Source: a virus
Virus record (IMG/VR): IMGVR_UViG_3300005613_000123
Span: 1-44,082 of that record
DNA: 44,082 nt
Strand: one strand, 5' to 3'
Shown: piece after piece, positions 12,656 to 44,082 of the stretch
Position numbering within the stretch: the stretch's first letter is position 1
Layout of the letters: every line of letters starts with the position of its first letter
Translations under genes and position numbers: made by a program
The notes under the pieces: model-generated
The model's input: only the letters and a program-made list of their open reading frames with translations
What the model was told of the DNA's origin: nothing
Databases searched by the model: none

Positions 12656-15087
12656 TGATTAAAAAACTATTACTAATATTACTATTTCTCATTCTATGTC
12701 AAGTCGGCTTCTCTGCGTACCTGAATACTGCTTTCAATTCAGGTGAGTTAAGCCCCTTGCTTAGATATAGGGTTGATCTAGATAAAAAGTATCTCGGTGT
12801 CGAGACGATGGAGAACTTCTTTGTCAAGCCGCAAGGAACCGCAATGCGGAGAGCAGGTACGTTTTATGTTGATGTGGCTGCTGGGGTGTCACACCTTGTT
12901 TCTTTTGAAAGTTCTACCGATGATGCGTATATATTAGAGTTTTCAGATAGCCTTATTAGATATTACCGTTGCGTTTCGGGCGTTGCAGGTCAAATACTCG
13001 ACGATTCTGGTGCTACATACGAAATAACTACAGTCTATGATGAAGACCAAATATCAGAAATACAATATGTTCAGTTGAACGACGTAATGTATATCGTCCA
13101 TCCTGATGATCCGCCACAAAAGCTTATTAGGATCGACCATGACGAATGGACAATAGCCGACGTTGGATGGGAATGGGGGCCGTTCTTAGATCAGAACACT
13201 ACGACAACAACCATAACACCGTCGGCAACCACAGGTGAGATAACGTTGACCGCATCGGCTGCTACGTTTACCGCAGACAATGTCGGTTCTTTGTGGAAGA
13301 TAATCGAAAAATCTGCCAACTCTTACACGTCTGGTAATATCGCATCAAACACAAGTAGCTCAAACGTTGCTATTGAAGGTGATGGGTTGCTGACACTAGA
13401 GGGGACGTGGACAGGTCTTATGACGCTGGAAAAGAGCGTTGTTGATGCCGACTCGTGGGAACCTGTATACCCAAAGCTCAATGGCGACGCCCCCAATATT
13501 GAGTATTCTTTTAGTGAGTCTGATGCTGGTTATGAGTATCGCGTCACAATGACTGACAGAACATCTGGAAGTTGCGATTATACTTTAACAGCATACAACT
13601 CTGATGTTTCTGGGTACGTTGAAATTACGGCTTTTACCAGCACAACATCCGTAACTGCTACGGTAACGAGTACGCTTGCTGGTACTGCTGCGACAACTAA
13701 ATGGGCTGAGGGTGCATGGAGTCCTCGTAGGGGTTATCCAAGGGCTATTTGTATTTACCAAAACAGATTATGTCTTGCAGGTACAACTTACCAGCCTAAC
13801 GGATTTTGGGCAAGTGCTTCTGCTGATCCAGAGAGCATGAGAGAGTCTACGCTAGATAATGGTGCAATTGCCTACGAAGTTAGTGCAACAAAGCAAAATC
13901 CTATTTTATGGCTTCAGGATAAAAACGGAGTTATCGCAGGTACTACTGGCTCAGTTATAAGAATATTTAGTCAATCAAATACGTCTGTGTTGACCGCATC
14001 AACTATAGGTTCTGAAAGACAGGCTGAGGCTGGAAGTGCCGATATGAAGCCAGCTTTAGTAGGCGATTCTATTGTGTTCGTTGACCGCAACAGACGTAAG
14101 GTTCGTGATATGATATACGACCTGCAAAGCGATGGTTTCGTATCTCCTGAACTTACCGTAATGGCAGAGCATATAACGTCTCCAAGTCTTATAGACATAG
14201 CCGTACAGAACCGTCCTGATAACATTGTGTGGTTTGTCAGGAGTGATGGACAGCTTGTATCATTGACATATAATCGAAATGAGGGTGTAGTTGCTTGGGC
14301 AAGGCATATAACGGATGGAAAGTTTGAATCTGTAGCCGTCATACCTGGTACTGATGAAGATCAAGTATGGTTTGTGGTGAAGCGTACAATAAACAGTGGT
14401 GAGGTTAGATATATCGAGCAAATGCAACCTCAAGACTGGGGAACTGATATAGATAATTCTTGGTTCGTTGATTCCGGTTCAACTTATTCTGGTATTTTAA
14501 CTGACACAATAACAGGACTTGATTATTTAAACGGCAAAACTGTTCAGTTGGTAAGTATTAAAGGTGATGAATATTCATTAACTTCAACAAGCGATGTTTC
14601 TTATGGCTCTGGTGCGTATGGGTCTGGTGTTTATCCCGGCTACACATCAACAGATGCGTCATTTACAGAAGTGACTGTAGTTGGAGGTGAGATTGATTTT
14701 TCAGACGCCAATATCAAAGTGAATCGTGCGATAGTTGGCTTGCCGTATACGTCTACTTTTTTATCTTTTCCTATAGAAGTTCAGACTCAAAGCGGATTTT
14801 CCATTGGGTATAAGAAAAAAATATATGAAATTGATGGTTGTTTTTACAGAACGATGGCCGGGCAGTATGGACTAAAAGAACAGTTCACAGAACCTACAAT
14901 GTACGATATCATGTTCTCTGAATGGCCTGACACTACTAATGGTTCAAATGATCCTTATACTGGCATGATACGGTTAGAAGTTGACGGTGGTTGGTCTGAC
15001 GAAGTTCAGATTAAGTTCTTGCAATCTGACCCTTATCCGTTTAATATAACTGCTGTTCAGTCGAAAGTTGAGGTTTCGCAGGATTAA
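12655..15087 (+). CDS. Tail nozzle, T7 gp12-like, with signal peptide
   Basis: Protein of 810 aa in the size class of T7 gp12 (tail tubular protein B). The conserved start of that family, here LNTAFNSGELSPLLRYRVD with NFFVKPQGTAMRRAGT, begins at about residue 23. In front of it stands a Sec signal (MIKK, Leu-rich core, GFSA). Later stretches RRGYPRAICIYQNRLCLAGT and PNGFWASASADPES are typical of the nozzle beta-propeller. It starts in a TAATG overlap with the tailspike gene and overlaps the GNAT-like gene by 20 bp. The nozzle forms the tail tip, so a signal peptide on it is unexpected. Confidence 0.85.
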   Translation: MIKKLLLILLFLILCQVGFSAYLNTAFNSGELSPLLRYRVDLDKKYLGVETMENFFVKPQGTAMRRAGTFYVDVAAGVSHLVSFESSTDDAYILEFSDSLIRYYRCVSGVAGQILDDSGATYEITTVYDEDQISEIQYVQLNDVMYIVHPDDPPQKLIRIDHDEWTIADVGWEWGPFLDQNTTTTTITPSATTGEITLTASAATFTADNVGSLWKIIEKSANSYTSGNIASNTSSSNVAIEGDGLLTLEGTWTGLMTLEKSVVDADSWEPVYPKLNGDAPNIEYSFSESDAGYEYRVTMTDRTSGSCDYTLTAYNSDVSGYVEITAFTSTTSVTATVTSTLAGTAATTKWAEGAWSPRRGYPRAICIYQNRLCLAGTTYQPNGFWASASADPESMRESTLDNGAIAYEVSATKQNPILWLQDKNGVIAGTTGSVIRIFSQSNTSVLTASTIGSERQAEAGSADMKPALVGDSIVFVDRNRRKVRDMIYDLQSDGFVSPELTVMAEHITSPSLIDIAVQNRPDNIVWFVRSDGQLVSLTYNRNEGVVAWARHITDGKFESVAVIPGTDEDQVWFVVKRTINSGEVRYIEQMQPQDWGTDIDNSWFVDSGSTYSGILTDTITGLDYLNGKTVQLVSIKGDEYSLTSTSDVSYGSGAYGSGVYPGYTSTDASFTEVTVVGGEIDFSDANIKVNRAIVGLPYTSTFLSFPIEVQTQSGFSIGYKKKIYEIDGCFYRTMAGQYGLKEQFTEPTMYDIMFSEWPDTTNGSNDPYTGMIRLEVDGGWSDEVQIKFLQSDPYPFNITAVQSKVEVSQD

Positions 15088-23153: not shown

Positions 23154-24068
23154 TTAGAATAGTTTATTCTCTTTAGATTCGACATTGGCCTTAGCCATAT
23201 TCTTAACAGCTTGCTTGTAGTAAGAATCCTTAAGTTCAATGCCTACAAAACGCCTACCTAATTTAACTGACATATAACCCTCTGATGCTATGCCCATAAA
23301 AGGGGATAATACTATGTCATATGGATTACTCCACAATTGCAAACCCCTCTCGATAACATCTAATTGTAGTGGGCATATATGACGCTCATCTTCGTCTGCC
23401 CTTGCAGATCTATGCTGTAGAGTGTTAGATGGATTTATATCCATCCATATCGGACTGGCGTATCTCTGCCAAACATCAATGCTCAATTTTCCCGTGTTTT
23501 TAAAAGTGGTTTCATCTCCACTAAAATAGTCAAGCTCACCATGTACTGGCTCTGGATTTACACCTGGTTTTCTTAGTGTTACTAAGTAATCCGGTATGCC
23601 TTGACGACTCATGCACGAATCCTTAACTACTTGTTTGTGCAGTAGTCCTAGTGCTTTCGTTCTTTGCATTGCCACTACTGGATTTTTCCATATACAAGCC
23701 TCTGAATGATATATAAACCCTTTAGACTGAAATAAGCGTATCATATCCCCTCTAAAATCTCTTATGCCTATATATCCATCCCTTGTTTTGCTGGTAGGCA
23801 AATTCATGCAGTGGATACTTACTAATCTGCCTGGCATTAAGCACCTGAATAATTCAGATACCAGAAAATCATAATGAACCATGAATTCATTATTAGTCTT
23901 ACAATTACCCATATCTCTATCAGAATTTGAATAAGTATATAAAGATGCAAATGGAGGGCTGAATATTGAATAATGTATTGAATTATCAGGAAGTCCTTTT
24001 GTAACTTCTACGCAATCGCCATTATAAACTGAATATTCATCTGTTATCGTTTGGTCTATTACTTTCAT
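23154..24068 (-). CDS. DNA methyltransferase, N4/N6 amino type
   Basis: Protein of 304 aa from the ATG after AAAGGAGC. The catalytic SPPF motif at residues 37-40 and the AdoMet-binding SPFMGIASEG near the C-terminus are in the beta-class order (catalytic motif first). SPPF is more usual for N4-cytosine or some N6-adenine enzymes. It overlaps the helicase gene by 4 bp (ATGA), so the two are produced together. Probable role: modifying phage DNA against host restriction, or an activity coupled to the helicase. Target sequence unknown. Confidence 0.85.
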   Translation of the reverse strand: MKVIDQTITDEYSVYNGDCVEVTKGLPDNSIHYSIFSPPFASLYTYSNSDRDMGNCKTNNEFMVHYDFLVSELFRCLMPGRLVSIHCMNLPTSKTRDGYIGIRDFRGDMIRLFQSKGFIYHSEACIWKNPVVAMQRTKALGLLHKQVVKDSCMSRQGIPDYLVTLRKPGVNPEPVHGELDYFSGDETTFKNTGKLSIDVWQRYASPIWMDINPSNTLQHRSARADEDERHICPLQLDVIERGLQLWSNPYDIVLSPFMGIASEGYMSVKLGRRFVGIELKDSYYKQAVKNMAKANVESKENKLF

Positions 24069-25444
24069 TTTTGCTCCTTTAGCCATTTAGGTATAATCAT
24101 TTTTTCTTGTGGCATATATCCAGTTACGGTTCTGGATGTGCCTTTTATGTTCTTCTCATTGTAAACGTGCATGTTTTTAACCATGCCATTAGCCATTTCT
24201 TTAGCTTGTATCTCTTTTCGTTTAATATTAGCAACAACAGCACCCTCGCGTACCGATGTTATAATATAGCAATCCACTGGCTTTGTCTGTCCGAATCTCC
24301 ATGTACGTCTAATGGCTTGATAAAACTTCTCATATGAATCAGACAATCCTACAAATATAACCTTGCTGCAATGCTGCCAGTTCATGCCATATCCGCATAT
24401 TGACGGCTTGCTTATGAGCTTTTGAACAGACCCATCGGAAAATCCGAGCATTGACTTTTCTTTATATTCAGGTTTATCGGCTCCCTTAACTTCGCAGCTA
24501 TTATTTATTAGTTTCTTAAGTGTAGCAGATTCATCATTTCTATCGCACCAAATAAGCAAAGGCTCATCTAGTGCATTTGCAACACTCGCTGCCATAGTAC
24601 ATCTATCAAGTGTCGATTCTTTTCTTGCTCGCTGTCTTTCTTGTAGTGTTTTGGCCTCCATATGAAATAGGTTTGTACTTGCAGTGGTATGATCTACGTC
24701 AACAGTTATTTCCTTCATGTTCAACGGTGGCAGGATAAACTTATCATCGTCATACCCTAAATCGGATGGCTTGCGAATCATTACGGCCCATGAGCAAACC
24801 CACTTCCAAAAGTCATCTACTGCATGACCTTTAAGCCTCCACTTTTGAGTCTCACCCCCATCATGCACAAAAAACATGGAAAGCATTTCAGCTCTTGTCA
24901 TCGCCCCCATAAACTCGGCATGATTACCAAGTTCCATTAAGTCGTTTGGCGATGGGGTGGCAGTACAACACAATCTATGCGGTACAGCCGACCATTCATC
25001 TATTAGTTGATTTCGATACTTGCCTGTGTAAGATTTCAATATGCTTGATTCGTCCAATACAATACCCTCAAAGTCGGCAGGGTTAAAAAGATGCAACATC
25101 TCATAGTTTGTTATTGTAATCCCGCTTGATGACTTTTTGCCATTCCTTGAGTAGTTCGCCTCAACTCCAAACTTAATACCCTCTCGATGGGTTTGTGCGG
25201 AAACAGCAAGCGGGGCTACTATCAATACATCGCCCTTATTCCTTAAAACCTCATAAGCCCATGCCAACTGCATAGGTGACTTACCAAGACCGCAATCGGC
25301 AAATATCGATGCCCTGCCTCGTGCAAGTGCCCACTTAACAATATCACCCTGAAAATCAAACAGCATATCATTAACAGAATCAACGCTAAAACCGCAAGGG
25401 CTATCTTTTATTGTCTTTCTTTTAAGGAAGTCTTTATATTGCAT
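24065..25444 (-). CDS. SNF2-like DEAD/DEAH helicase
   Basis: Protein of 459 aa with superfamily 2 motifs in order: Walker A GLGKS at 52-56, motif Ia region LIVAPL (74-79), Walker B DESS at 131-134, motif III TATPSPND at 161-168, and motif VI QAIRRTWRFGQ in the C-terminal lobe. This is the compact phage SNF2-type translocase often found next to methyltransferases. It could remodel DNA-protein complexes or help recombination. It overlaps both neighbours (10 bp with the 79-aa gene, 4 bp with the methyltransferase). Confidence 0.88.
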   Translation of the reverse strand: MQYKDFLKRKTIKDSPCGFSVDSVNDMLFDFQGDIVKWALARGRASIFADCGLGKSPMQLAWAYEVLRNKGDVLIVAPLAVSAQTHREGIKFGVEANYSRNGKKSSSGITITNYEMLHLFNPADFEGIVLDESSILKSYTGKYRNQLIDEWSAVPHRLCCTATPSPNDLMELGNHAEFMGAMTRAEMLSMFFVHDGGETQKWRLKGHAVDDFWKWVCSWAVMIRKPSDLGYDDDKFILPPLNMKEITVDVDHTTASTNLFHMEAKTLQERQRARKESTLDRCTMAASVANALDEPLLIWCDRNDESATLKKLINNSCEVKGADKPEYKEKSMLGFSDGSVQKLISKPSICGYGMNWQHCSKVIFVGLSDSYEKFYQAIRRTWRFGQTKPVDCYIITSVREGAVVANIKRKEIQAKEMANGMVKNMHVYNEKNIKGTSRTVTGYMPQEKMIIPKWLKEQK

Positions 25445-25673
25445 TATACTGGCCTCCTATGGACTCCAATACTCTAACAGCGTCTGAATATTCACAGCTA
25501 GCAATATCAAGATTATTATTCATTAGTGTCTCTTTGACTGACATATAATAAAGCATAAGCCGTTTTACTTTCTTTTTGTGGTGTCTTTTAACATACGCTG
25601 GTTTATCGTTGATCATGTTCACTTGATCTTTTCCATGCTCATGTAAAAAGACCTCTGTTATTCCTTTTGGCAT
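25434..25673 (-). CDS. Small basic protein, first gene after the attenuator
   Basis: Protein of 79 aa starting at the ATG after AAAGGAAATACA. A longer in-frame reading to 25805 exists but runs through the promoter and the leader hairpins, so it is not used. Basic middle (KRHHKKKVKRL) and helical C-terminus; no family recognised. It heads the helicase-methyltransferase transcript. Confidence 0.6.
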   Translation of the reverse strand: MPKGITEVFLHEHGKDQVNMINDKPAYVKRHHKKKVKRLMLYYMSVKETLMNNNLDIASCEYSDAVRVLESIGGQYNAI

Positions 25674-25695
25674 TGTATTTCCTTTCATGGCATTT

Positions 25696-25791
25696 ATAAA
25701 AAACCGCAACCGATTAACTATCAGCCATGAAAGCGGGATATGTTCCCTGTGATCGGCTGCGGTTGTATTGTGGTTCGTTACTTTCATGGCT
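25696..25791 (-). promoter_or_regulatory. Attenuator/switch-like 5' leader
   Basis: Just downstream of the predicted start site, the transcript begins AGCCATGAAAG (25791-25781), which pairs perfectly over 11 bp with an internal segment at 25733-25723. Interleaved with this is a 13-bp terminator stem (25764-25752 with 25714-25702, one G-U) followed by six U (25703-25696 region). A small GGGA/UCCC hairpin (25735-25747) lies inside. The two long helices cross, so they are mutually exclusive or form a pseudoknot. This fits a regulated terminator; the trigger is unknown. Confidence 0.65.
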
Positions 25792-25796
25792 CTTAT

Positions 25797-25824
25797 AATA
25801 TACACTGTATTTTTTGTTTGTCAA
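25797..25824 (-). promoter_or_regulatory. Leftward sigma70-type promoter
   Basis: TTGACA (25824-25819) and TATATT (25802-25797) are separated by 16 bp, predicting a start near 25790. It drives the switch-like leader and the helicase-methyltransferase genes. Confidence 0.7.
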
Positions 25825-28677: not shown

Positions 28678-28970
28678 CACTTCGCCCTCCATAACTTCCA
28701 CCACTTGCGGGTGTAATCAGAACAAGTAATGTATTCATCTCTGCCGCCTTTGCCGTTAAGATATTCCCTGAACTCTAAATAGCCGCAGTTTGCATACCAC
28801 TTACAATCCTTGCATCTTCGGGGCTTGGGCTTGCACCATAAGGTAATGCCAATAACCGACAATCCATAAGACCTACAGTAATTAGTGTTACCAGAGAGGC
28901 GTCCGATGTATTTCCACGCATGCCATCCTCGAAAACTTAATCTTATTTTTACTATTCTTCGTCTACTCAT
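28677..28970 (-). CDS. 97-aa basic protein with Cys motif
   Basis: Starts MSRRRIVKIRL, overlapping the end of the preceding gene. It has a basic N-terminus, a hydrophobic stretch (YGLSVIGITLW) that may span or enter the membrane, then CKDCKWYANC and a last Cys (TCSD), consistent with zinc binding. Function unknown. Confidence 0.55.
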   Translation of the reverse strand: MSRRRIVKIRLSFRGWHAWKYIGRLSGNTNYCRSYGLSVIGITLWCKPKPRRCKDCKWYANCGYLEFREYLNGKGGRDEYITCSDYTRKWWKLWRAK

Positions 28971-30237
28971 TTTCTGCCTCGCTTTCTTTGATCTCAAGTT
29001 TGCAGCAGGGGCAATATCGATAGCCATTTTCGTGCCATGTCCCGTCGTTAAATTCAAATGTTAAGCCACAACTAGTCTCGTAGTAATCATCGAAACCGTC
29101 GCTCATCGTTTCGCAATGCTCCCACTTACACACCTTTTTACCGGTGTCTCTGACATGCTCAACGGCCTCATCTTCGCTGTCAGGTACATTCCATTCGCGG
29201 TTCTTGTTAATTGTCAGTTTTCTCCATAAAGCTTCGTAGATGGCATCTTCTGACCAGCCTGCACGCCAAGCTCCATCAAGGCCAAGTATGATAACGTCCA
29301 CCCACTCAAATAAATCCGTAGGGGCATTTTTTATTTCCACAAGTTCTTTCTTGATGTGGTCGATCAGCCCTTTTGTTCTGCGACCTGACCCGAAAGTTAT
29401 CTTGCTCCACTCCTTTTGTTCGCGTAGGTATTGAATGAAGCTTGATTGTGCTACCTTTTTACCGGAGCCGGCAATATGGTCGTTACCGCAATAGTCTGGC
29501 TCCATAATACAAGTCTTGCAGTCGCCATTGCATTTGCCTAGCTTTGCTTCTGGCAGGTGGATTGGTTTATACCACTCAACCTCCGAGTCCTCATTTAGCC
29601 ATATTTCTTGTGCTGATTTTATGATCACTTTTTCTGCATAATGGTCGAGGGTGTAAAATTCAATATCCCACTCGCTATCACTCGCAGGGTATGGTTGCAT
29701 CAAGAAGTCTGGCATATCCTCAACGCTCACCCACTCATACTTGGCAAGTTGGGCTAATATATTCCCAAGATGCCCAGCGACTTGTAAAAGTCCATTACAT
29801 GAAATTGAAGATAGCCAATGCTCACCTATTAGCTCTGTGCATTTATGTAGCTCTGTTTCATATTTAGTCGCCTCGGCAAGCTGGGCCTCAAGCTCGGCAA
29901 TGCGATTACGCAGTAACACATTGGCATTTTGTGCATTCATCAGTTCGGCCCCTAGCCGTTCATTAGACATTTCTTTTATTGACTCATTTTTCATCTTATT
30001 CACCTTCGCTTTCTGCTTGAGGTTTTTTGCTTTTAAGCTCAATTCGGTCATATCTCTGGCATCATCGTAAAGTATCTCAAGCTCGGCGATACGTTTAACT
30101 TGCTGCTCAGAACACTCGTTAATGTCTTTCCACGATTCCAAGAGACGGGCGTTGTCTGCTTTAAGCTCGGCTATCCTACACCGATCACACATCACGCCTA
30201 TTACGCCTGTTGTTTCGCAATGGGTACATTTACTCAT
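28963..30237 (-). CDS. Coiled-coil protein with MazG/DUF550-like domain
   Basis: Protein of 424 aa, apparently a fusion. N-terminus: CTHCETTGVIGVMCDRC zinc knuckle (4-20). Residues about 20-140: long coiled coil. Middle: CNGDCKTC zinc-like segment. About 265-350: FIQYLREQKEWSKITFGSG ... HIKKELVEI ... EWVDVIILGLDGAWRAG ... RKLTINKNREW, the pattern of DUF550/MazG-like dNTP pyrophosphohydrolases with ExxE and ExxD helices. C-terminus: CPCC knuckle. It probably adjusts nucleotide pools or removes unusual dNTPs. It is the first gene after the 30.3-kb promoter. Confidence 0.7.
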   Translation of the reverse strand: MSKCTHCETTGVIGVMCDRCRIAELKADNARLLESWKDINECSEQQVKRIAELEILYDDARDMTELSLKAKNLKQKAKVNKMKNESIKEMSNERLGAELMNAQNANVLLRNRIAELEAQLAEATKYETELHKCTELIGEHWLSSISCNGLLQVAGHLGNILAQLAKYEWVSVEDMPDFLMQPYPASDSEWDIEFYTLDHYAEKVIIKSAQEIWLNEDSEVEWYKPIHLPEAKLGKCNGDCKTCIMEPDYCGNDHIAGSGKKVAQSSFIQYLREQKEWSKITFGSGRRTKGLIDHIKKELVEIKNAPTDLFEWVDVIILGLDGAWRAGWSEDAIYEALWRKLTINKNREWNVPDSEDEAVEHVRDTGKKVCKWEHCETMSDGFDDYYETSCGLTFEFNDGTWHENGYRYCPCCKLEIKESEAENE

Positions 30238-30262: not shown

Positions 30263-30328
30263 GACTCCGCAAAGCTGCGGAAGTTGATAGGTCTAATTAT
30301 AATATACCCTACTTTTGAGCTTTGTCAA
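30263..30328 (-). promoter_or_regulatory. Leftward promoter with 5' stem-loop leader
   Basis: TTGACA (30328-30323), 16 bp, TATATT (30306-30301). The predicted transcript starts near 30293, and its 5' end forms a 6-bp hairpin (TCCGCA/TGCGGA, 30281-30266) further closed by GAC/GTC. The DUF550 gene ATG lies about 56 bases downstream with an AAAGGAG site. Confidence 0.7.
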
Positions 30329-30416
30329 GTTTCGTTTTAATTAGTAATGGATATTTAACCCTTGCCCATGCTATTAGTTCACGGTACAATTTTAATGCTT
30401 TATCTTTCTTTGTCAT
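30309..30416 (-). CDS. Possible 35-aa basic peptide
   Basis: Short ORF starting with MTKKDKALKLYREL after a TTAAGG site and placed directly after the 11-bp GC hairpin at 30431-30460. Its end overlaps the promoter -35 region. Lys/Leu-rich and helical. Could be a leader peptide or a real mini-gene; evidence is modest. Confidence 0.35.
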   Translation of the reverse strand: MTKKDKALKLYRELIAWARVKYPLLIKTKLDKAQK

Positions 30417-30430
30417 ATTAACCTTAATAT

Positions 30431-30605
30431 TGGCGTGACTGCCGGAAAACAGCCACGCCATGAAAGCTTTACAGCAAGGTAGTTACCGTTACTGTTTTGG
30501 TACGCCTGTCGTGAGGATGCTCACCTTTCTTCTTGCGGCGTACCGGTTAATTCTTACGCCCACGCCGAGAGTCCGGGTAAAGGGCAATTTAAATGTCGGA
30601 CATGT
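30431..30605 (-). ncRNA. Structured RNA candidate
   Basis: A stretch of nearly 200 bases without a confident gene and rich in paired segments. An 11-bp hairpin (30431-30460, one mismatch), a perfect 8-bp stem GGTACGCC/GGCGTACC (30499-30506 with 30537-30544) enclosing GTGAG-GATG-CTCAC (30511-30524), and an alternative pairing of CGGCGT (30536-30541) with ACGCCG (30562-30567) that would break the 8-bp stem. A further GTCCG/CGGAC pair lies at the 5' side. Known RNA family not recognised. Confidence 0.45.
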
Positions 30606-42482: not shown

Positions 42483-43045
42483 ATAACCAAACAAAGGTAT
42501 ATAGTAGAATGGCTAAGAAATCAAAACTGACCCCTAAACAGGATAGATTCTGCCGAGAATACATGATTGACCTAAATGCTACACAAGCAGCGATAAGGTC
42601 TGGATACAGTAAAAAAACAGCAAAAGAGCAAGCCTATGGACTCCTCACCAAACTACACATACAGCAGAGAGTGACAGAGTTAAACCGAAAAAGGCAAGAA
42701 GCAACTGGCATAACAGCAGAAAAGGTACTGCGTGAAGCAGCTAGGATAGCGTTCGCTGATGTTGGCGAAGCATTTAATGATGATGGCAGCCTAAAGCTCA
42801 TACATGAGATACCGAAAGACATACGCCGTGCTATGTCAAGTCTTGAGGTCGTAGAAAACTGGGAATATAATGAAGAAGGTGAAAAAGAAATAAGCGGCGA
42901 GCTCAAGAAGGTAAAATTTTGGAGTAAAGATAAGCAAATCGAGAATTTATTTAAGCATTGCGGACTATTCGAGAAGGATAACGAGCAAAGCCGTGATCTG
43001 ACAGTAGCGGAAATAGCCGCATTGATGATGAGTGATAATGGTTAG
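42479..43045 (+). CDS. terS: Terminase small subunit
   Basis: Protein of 188 aa of the Terminase_2 type: KLTPKQDRFCREYMIDLNAT (about residues 16-35), then QAAIRSGYSKKTAKEQAYGLL is the characteristic N-terminal helix-turn-helix that recognises packaging DNA. A middle helical segment (oligomerisation) and a charged C-terminus follow. It overlaps the upstream zinc-finger gene and the large subunit gene by 4 and 8 bp, so terS and terL are coupled. Confidence 0.88.
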   Translation: MNNQTKVYSRMAKKSKLTPKQDRFCREYMIDLNATQAAIRSGYSKKTAKEQAYGLLTKLHIQQRVTELNRKRQEATGITAEKVLREAARIAFADVGEAFNDDGSLKLIHEIPKDIRRAMSSLEVVENWEYNEEGEKEISGELKKVKFWSKDKQIENLFKHCGLFEKDNEQSRDLTVAEIAALMMSDNG

Positions 43046-44082
43046 CATTAACAAAGACATGCAAAGTGTGTATAAAAGCCTGATAGGGTACAAACAAGAC
43101 CCAATCGGGTTCGCTACGCATGTATTATCACTAAAATCCGAGTATGTATGGCCTAAGATGGTAGAAATGGCTGAGGCTGTTCGGGATCATCAAAAGATAT
43201 GCGTACGTGCTGGTCACTCAGTCAGCAAAACATTTAGTCTTGGGCGTGTGATAGTGCCCTGGTACAAGATGTGTTTTCAGCCGTCTACAGTTGTTACTAC
43301 TGCACCATCTGACAATCTGGTTAAGGAGCAGCTTTGGCGTGAGATACACGCAGCGTTCAGTGGTGCAAGGGTTCCTTTGGGTGGTAAGATGTCTTCTACA
43401 AAATGGGACGTTAGGCCAAGGCAAGAAGTGTTAGACCAATTAAAACCGGATCAGCGTGAGCAATGGGAAAAAAACTTTGCTATTGGGTTTAGCACAAGTC
43501 CAGATAGTACAGCAGAACACGCAACAAAAATGCAGGGATGGCATAATGAGCACGTATTAGTGGTAATCGATGAAGCTTGCGGTATAATGCCTCAGATATG
43601 GCGTACAGCAGTTGAAGCACTGATTACTGATGATAATTGCAAGCTGGTTGCGATAGGTAATCCCACTAATCCAGAATGTGATTTTGCAAAAGCCTGTCAT
43701 TCGAGCGATCCAGAAAAAAACAACGGTAATGAGCCTTATATGAGTGATTTGGGCTATTACGTGGTCACTATAAGCGGTAAAGATACGCCAAACTATAAAC
43801 AAAATAAGCGTGTTATACCTGGCCTTGCGAGTAGGGCGTTTGTAGATGGCATTGAAAAGAAGTATGGCGTTGATGGTGATGGCACTCGATACAGGGTTTT
43901 GGGGTTATTTCCAACGTTCAAAGAGGGGACTTATTACGGTAGGCATCTATCTAAGGCACGTAAGGATGGTAGAATTGGCGATTATAAGTGGGATGAGCAA
44001 CAGAAGGTATATACTTTTAGCGACACCGGAGATATGTCAACGGCTGTTATATTTGCCCAGTTCTTAAAAACCGGCATAAGGA
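43038..44082 (+). CDS. terL: Terminase large subunit, N-terminal part (ATPase)
   Basis: Begins inside the end of terS and runs off the window; it continues from base 1 to 653. The ATPase domain is visible: Walker A-like GHSVSKT (59-65, with Ser63 in place of the usual Gly before the Lys), TTAPSD (87-92), Walker B VLVVIDEA with D178-E179, and LVAIGNPTN (motif III region). The final 123 bases repeat the start of the window. This protein pumps DNA into the capsid through the portal. Confidence 0.9.
   Translation, partial: MVSINKDMQSVYKSLIGYKQDPIGFATHVLSLKSEYVWPKMVEMAEAVRDHQKICVRAGHSVSKTFSLGRVIVPWYKMCFQPSTVVTTAPSDNLVKEQLWREIHAAFSGARVPLGGKMSSTKWDVRPRQEVLDQLKPDQREQWEKNFAIGFSTSPDSTAEHATKMQGWHNEHVLVVIDEACGIMPQIWRTAVEALITDDNCKLVAIGNPTNPECDFAKACHSSDPEKNNGNEPYMSDLGYYVVTISGKDTPNYKQNKRVIPGLASRAFVDGIEKKYGVDGDGTRYRVLGLFPTFKEGTYYGRHLSKARKDGRIGDYKWDEQQKVYTFSDTGDMSTAVIFAQFLKTGIR
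43960..44082. repeat. Terminal direct repeat, copy 2
   Basis: Exact second copy of bases 1-123. Removing one copy gives a circular genome of about 43,959 bp. See copy 1 for interpretation. Confidence 0.97.

Follow-up and report, generated by a model that had tools for sequence, protein, structure and literature searches.

Genomic setting and parts of the leader

The window, by which we mean the whole stretch of 44,082 nt analysed here, is a phage genome of 44 kb whose ends (1-123 and 43960-44082) repeat each other over 123 bp, and on the evidence of this repeat the record is probably complete. It encodes a capsid protein of the GP7 type and a head-tail connector, and has no relatives at the DNA level in the phage collection. 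Its genes run leftward from about 40 to 22 kb and rightward elsewhere, in agreement with the GC skew. Only short frames are found at the place expected for the large terminase gene, after that for the small terminase (43045-44082 and 1-653), and the L089 large terminase, used as a tblastn query, found no relative in the window. The C-terminal part of a 424-aa protein encoded at 28963-30237 (minus strand) contains a dATP/dGTP pyrophosphohydrolase domain.

The element described here is intergenic and lies upstream of a 79-aa gene that belongs to the leftward set. The original prediction had it controlling genes for a helicase and a methyltransferase; both are indeed downstream, but the first gene codes for the 79-aa orphan, and most of the elements found in relatives precede other genes. 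Since neither the 79-aa protein (in the searches made) nor the leader (in the collections searched) has a homologue, no covariation at the same site can be counted.

On the minus strand the parts follow one another in the order promoter, R1, L1, T5', small hairpin, R', T3', U6 and R2 (Table 1). The promoter can be read with a spacer of 16 nt (TATATT) or 18 nt (TATTAT); either reading matches the consensus at 11 of 12 positions, and the two are the best of 14 promoter-like sites between 24 and 28 kb. The transcript start at this promoter is predicted from sequence; if the spacer is the 18-nt one, transcription could begin at C25788/A25787, and the R1 helix would be cut to 7 bp. A second promoter-like stretch at 30297-30343 (minus strand), 72% like the element's promoter over 47 nt, is followed by a short hairpin and no terminator.

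R1 is fully complementary to R', which is separated from T3' by GATAGTTA, and the helices R1:R' (R, 11 bp) and T5':T3' (T) cross. They are mutually exclusive because of this crossing, no nucleotide being common to both. The terminator consists of 13 bp, including one G-U, a 37-nt loop and U6. A scan of both window strands for stems of at least 10 bp with a loop of no more than 45 and a U tract gave no other; a simple terminator tool missed it because of a loop limit of 8 nt. As in an attenuator, this predicted intrinsic terminator stands between the promoter and the first gene. An 11-bp helix at the 5' end interleaved with a 13-bp intrinsic terminator, directly behind a good promoter, was correctly recognised at the outset, as was the rule that, short of a pseudoknot, either helix can form and not both, which nested folding reproduces. 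Two features had been missed: an open leader frame, and R2, which together with the Shine-Dalgarno sequence makes up GCCATGAAAGGA and overlaps the AAAGGA of the 79-aa gene.

Table 1 Positions of the leader's parts and neighbouring genes in the window, and of elements with the crossing layout in other records (scan scores in brackets)
Feature	Record	Position	Strand	Remarks
Promoter	window	25795..25824	-	TTGACA 25824-25819; -10 TATATT 25802-25797 or TATTAT 25800-25795
R1, 5'-end arm	window	25781..25791	-	AGCCATGAAAG; contains ATG 25787-25785
Open leader frame	window	25434..25787	-	117 codons, predicted; ATG in R1
L1, G-poor linker	window	25765..25780	-	1 G in 16 nt
T5', terminator 5' arm	window	25752..25764	-	AACCGCAGCCGAT
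Small hairpin	window	25735..25747	-	GGGA-ACATA-TCCC, within terminator loop
R'	window	25723..25733	-	CTTTCATGGCT; complement of R1 (11 bp) and R2 (10 bp)
T3', terminator 3' arm	window	25702..25714	-	ATCGGTTGCGGTT; last two T are part of the U6 tract
U tract (U6)	window	25698..25703	-	
R2, second direct copy of R1 core	window	25682..25691	-	GCCATGAAAG
First gene	window	25434..25673	-	79-aa orphan protein
SNF2-type helicase	window	24065..25444	-	459 aa; Pfam
N6/N4 DNA methyltransferase	window	23154..24086	-	310 aa; Pfam
Further R' core copy	window	30457..30466	-	CTTTCATGGC; candidate, possible trans partner of R1/R2
Related element (64.1)	G004	39324	+	
Related element (55.9)	G004	13930	-	
Related element (57.6)	G009	307	+	
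Related element (56.3)	G002	1197	+	
Related element (51.1)	G003	22730	+	
Related element	G011	near 14300	+	below scan threshold, weak, taken in by eye
Related element (62.9)	G018 (=L212)	20768	+	
Related element (49.3)	G018 (=L212)	10496	-	
Related element (43.6)	G018 (=L212)	11195	-	within shuffle range
Second-set member	L083	8529	+	
Second-set member	L072	3851	+	
Second-set member	L172	2881	+	
Second-set member	L153	2893	+	
Second-set member	L168	2773	+	
Second-set member	L171	1317	+	
Second-set member	L147	2892	+	
Second-set member	L132	757	+	

The crossing layout compared with chance

Taken by itself the R1:R' helix proves nothing: a shuffled genome would contain on average 0.77 inverted repeats of 11 bp within 90 nt, and the window has this one only. 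The R1/R'/R2 triple (a 10-mer within 200 nt) arose in none of 100 shuffles. The layout as a whole was scored by a scan for a terminator accompanied by a helix between the terminator loop and the 60 nt upstream, in which the window's element reaches 58.6. The maximum in a shuffled set of 16 records (303 kb) was 48.9 in 10 repeats, or 52.6 in 12 repeats when one bulge was allowed by the scanner, and the top score in the control phages lambda, N15, P22, P4 and Gifsy-1 (196.7 kb) was 51. The fold of nt 1-94 has a predicted energy of -27.7 kcal/mol (z -3.4), equalled by 1 of 200 shuffles. What goes beyond chance in the window is the way strong R and T helices interleave, and the R1/R'/R2 triple. 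Another candidate, at +40944 ahead of the late operon of the window (45.8), was rejected: it falls in the shuffle range, is absent in a second scan and has an R arm that folds on itself.

The layout recurs with different letters in related phages

Relatives were collected through the capsid, portal, helicase and a 157-aa early protein, giving a family set of 18 records and about 383 kb (302,698 nt in 16 records, plus G018 and G019). Within it the crossing layout is found in 10 elements from 7 records, the window included. Five of the nine other elements score above every shuffle, two lie at the upper edge of the shuffles and two are weak. Mirror-strand matches of the same element were left out, as were rows in G001 (-10169, 48.6; -18534, 44.2) and in G018 (+36110, 46.9; -11611, 42.6) that are in the shuffle range and show no promoter right before R1. 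Seven of the 11 element-free records are fragments of less than 7 kb; the large ones are G001, G008, G017 and G019, of which G001 is close to the window in its capsid and G008 has the closest helicase.

Because G018 came to light only once the layout had been described, it provides a fresh test; each of its three elements stands, by eye, behind promoter-like sequence (TTGACA..TATAGT, TTGACT..TATAGT and TTGACT..TATATT). The L1 linkers are 15-27 nt long and mostly G-poor, with 0-1 G in 7 of the 10 elements. Between phages nothing common can be seen by eye in the arm sequences, apart from a resemblance of the terminator of G018 +20768 to that of the window. The pairing anticipated from the single leader therefore does persist in relatives, as a layout with other letters, with no homologues at the same site in the collections searched. 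A search of viral contigs for the exact R1..R' pair gave two near-identical contigs, which were set aside: on reading, the matching stretch is GC-rich and unrelated, and lacks both promoter and U tract.

No single gene goes with the device: the genes behind the elements vary. Helicase and methyltransferase operons follow the elements of the window and G009, small genes those of G004a, G003 and two of the G018 elements, a D12-like methyltransferase G018 -10496 and an HTH-type regulator the G011 element (the last two by reading), while G004b precedes about 1 kb without a gene. Behind the G002 element comes a structured RNA and then the late operon. This RNA (L089 1250-1460, plus strand), about 200 nt long and directly behind the element, is closed by a long AU-rich helix (z -2.0); it has a tRNA-like T-arm by eye and is not called as a tRNA by ARAGORN. 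No leader of this layout was seen by eye directly before the helicase in the upstream regions of 15 of 80 helicase relatives.

A predicted leader frame opens at or near R1 and often ends on the next gene

In the window a frame with its ATG in R1 has no stop through the terminator and U tract and is in frame with the 79-aa gene. Among the first seven elements, six have an ATG in R1 or at most 12 nt before it with the frame open through the U tract, and in five the ATG is in R1 or within 2 nt of it; two of the three G018 elements bring the total to 8 of 10. Dinucleotide shuffles of each element put the chance of such an open frame at 0.03-0.18, and the Poisson-binomial joint P is 1.4e-6 for at least six such elements and 5.8e-5 for at least five, for a 12-nt search zone that was chosen after the cases had been seen. 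The exceptions are G002, without a leader frame, and L212c, with a frame of 7 codons.

The frames of the window and G009 continue in frame into the gene. Of the six that end, five stop on the start of the next gene (ATGA in G004a, TAATG in G011, an overlap of about 10 nt in G003, TAATG and ATGA in G018); that of G004b stops right after the U tract, where there is no gene. On reading, a good Shine-Dalgarno sequence precedes the frame in G004b and G011. Those of the window, G003 and G004a would have little or no untranslated leader. The start codon lies 23-43 nt from T5', and no run of control codons was seen in the predicted frame.

Predicted folding order

The folding test took in 14 elements, leaving out L016, L017, L031, L174 and other second-set members (see below), and used software that handles nested structures only, so that coexistence of R and T as a pseudoknot lies outside its reach. 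When the transcript was made to end at R', all R1:R' pairs formed in each of the first seven elements. On base-by-base extension R stayed lowest until 9-14 nt of T3' were exposed, after which T took over in six of the seven, the exception being G002; forcing R at full length cost 2.6-6.2 kcal/mol in these six. Of the three G018 elements, two remain in R and the third switches, R and T being nearly tied at full length. Overall T takes over in 7 of 10 elements and R is favoured at full length in three (G002, L212b and L212c), where on these models the terminator helix might never win. In silico, then, an alternative helix excludes the terminator and forms before it, as in an attenuator. While the U tract is being made, the end of T3' has yet to leave the polymerase, so R should usually hold. 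T should form when R1 is unavailable, and folds with R1 masked agree.

A second set of elements with the same layout

The layout was also found among helicase relatives, 10 times at a score of at least 54 in 882,805 nt, always on the helicase strand and with two of the matches near-identical; shuffles gave 11 matches in 25 repeats. The terminators are mostly longer than those in the window's family. A replication-type gene behind one of these elements served as a second query, and the resulting 80 loci held 12 matches. Of these, 11 lie on the strand of the gene and 8 are no more than 250 nt upstream of it, three of the 8 being near-identical. L021, L184 and L176 (3 of the 11 matches of one scan) were left out for their weak stems.

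The eight members in Table 1 share an R helix with ends TTGG..CCAA and a covarying interior, a long terminator and a hairpin between R' and T3'. All eight can also form a further helix, K, of 5-7 bp, in which the linker pairs with the inner hairpin's loop, again with different letters, and the set is without the leader frame. Rfam gave no match for L083, L072, L057 (standing in for L132), L172, L153, L168, L171 or L147. The set looks like an undescribed pseudoknotted RNA family that precedes phage replication-type genes; we make no claim that it shares ancestry with the element of the window.

Comparison with known systems and weighing of alternatives

The original prediction saw no RNA class that it recognised, and this stands: Rfam returned no aptamer at gathering score, three matches up to E 10 being eukaryotic families far below their cut-offs, and no model of the C4/CI kind of phage antisense RNA matched. 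The likeness to riboswitches that was also proposed is not supported, as the elements have no sequence core in common that could bind a ligand, which makes a metabolite riboswitch unlikely. In the literature open to the search, from which most subscription journals are missing, we found no description of the crossing layout.

In trp and pyrBI attenuation a ribosome on the leader frame decides between terminator and readthrough, and the pyrBI frame runs through the terminator; the element has an open leader frame, which likewise runs through the terminator and may play a similar part. In trp, however, antiterminator and terminator share a strand (2:3 vs 3:4), whereas here they cross as 1:3 and 2:4 without a shared nucleotide; the start codon, moreover, lies in or beside helix 1:3, and a run of control codons was not seen. 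In the rep mRNA attenuation of plasmids pT181 and pIP501 an antiterminator is the default and termination follows when the 5' arm is occupied, both of which we propose for the element; it differs in its crossing helices without a shared strand, and no antisense gene is apparent opposite the leader. HDV-like ribozymes have crossing helices in the same order, but the element differs in its 11-bp first helix, the U tract behind it and the lack of an Rfam match, through which alone the catalytic core was compared.

In lambda the promoter PR' is followed at once by the terminator tR', where Q acts, and the element has the same order of promoter and terminator. A phage protein that acts on RNA polymerase at this promoter could then be the agent of readthrough, with R1:R' as a pause hairpin, and the lambda region at 44721 scores 47 in our scan. 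We think this very unlikely, given that no antiterminator was found among the 19 distinct window proteins searched (about one third of the genes) and that the sequences downstream of the promoters have nothing in common by eye. The three copies of a 10-mer near the promoter might also be read as DNA operator sites of a repressor rather than as RNA elements. This is highly improbable: the arms of the relatives are unrelated in sequence and have no third copy nearby, and what persists is the complementarity, the terminator and a U tract on the strand of the genes. The strong promoter, the 5' arm at the very start and the terminator about 94 nt on would suit a short stable RNA, with both helices coexisting as a pseudoknot that protects the 3' end and readthrough being incidental or a fixed fraction; L1, at 15-27 nt and mostly G-poor, is long enough to cross the terminator stem. 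Yet L3 is 0-1 nt in four of the first seven elements, which leaves almost nothing to cross a helix of 10-12 bp, and leader frames that end on the next gene's start point to a leader cistron, so that a stable RNA as the main product seems distinctly unlikely.

Antisense or self-antisense control, as by the P4 CI RNA or in plasmid rep attenuation, would have an RNA with the R' sequence act in trans, binding R1 to cause termination and R2 to hide the ribosome-binding site. As in C4/CI-type RNAs, the window has an antisense segment, R', complementary to both an upstream and a downstream copy (predicted pairing -18.5 kcal/mol with R1, -16.7 with R2). In P4 an inverted copy lies between two direct copies in the leader and transcription ends prematurely before the replication genes (PMC4825925); the order seqA/seqB/seqC there equals R1/R'/R2. 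Candidates for the trans RNA are the terminated 94-nt leader itself and the non-coding stretch 30622-30412 (minus strand), which lies between two genes, ends at the start of a small ORF and is highly structured (-74.8 kcal/mol, z -5.2; no relevant match in Rfam). It contains the further copy of the R' core, whose predicted duplex with R1 has -17.9 kcal/mol. The leader would in this respect resemble IsrK of Gifsy-1, a short terminated RNA that readthrough extends into an mRNA and whose alternative pairings involve a downstream ribosome-binding site (PMC4825925), all features predicted for the element as well. Against P4 as described there, however, the third copy is not kept in relatives: in 15 elements a nearby R2-like copy was seen in the window only. 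The extra copy is window-specific too, a single 10-mer match elsewhere in 44 kb would not be a very unlikely accident, and no crossing layout above 46 occurs in the P4 and Gifsy-1 records. We regard this kind of control as unlikely.

A proposed switch

Our preferred reading, to which we give a probability of about one half, is a transcriptional attenuator that reads through by default and whose terminator is released by occupancy of R1. Comparison of the elements and predicted folding together lend good support to the idea of a switch. Four segments, R1, T5', R' and T3', would form either 1:3, the antiterminator, or 2:4, the terminator. R1:R' would form first as the leader is made and trap T5' in its loop, so that polymerase would tend to read on; with R1, at the extreme 5' end, occupied, T5' would be freed to pair with T3' and transcription would stop after about 94 nt. 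Chiefly because of the open leader frames, we infer that the sensor is a ribosome, the likeliest occupant of an arm that holds or adjoins a start codon. An initiating ribosome would cover R1 and, at a spacing of 23-43 nt, not T5', leading to termination; an elongating one would cover T5' and allow readthrough again. The window alone may have a second lock, in which R', freed from R1, would pair with R2 and so mask the first gene's ribosome-binding site on transcripts that escape termination.

The recurrence of the layout with different letters in related phages suggests an undescribed type of genetic switch. More tentatively, we think it possible that this is a new type of attenuator whose antiterminator and terminator have no strand in common and exclude each other by crossing only, in which the first ribosome reads a start codon hidden within or next to the 5' arm, and which has been rebuilt in other letters at many promoters across a single phage family, with a separate phage RNA family of the same layout plus a third helix before replication genes. 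If so, an attenuator can be made from two helices without a common strand, its arms being free to change in sequence, and this freedom would explain why sequence-based RNA searches have missed it. One phage family would then place such gates directly behind the strong promoters of several operons, whose transcription would probably be tied to the first ribosome.
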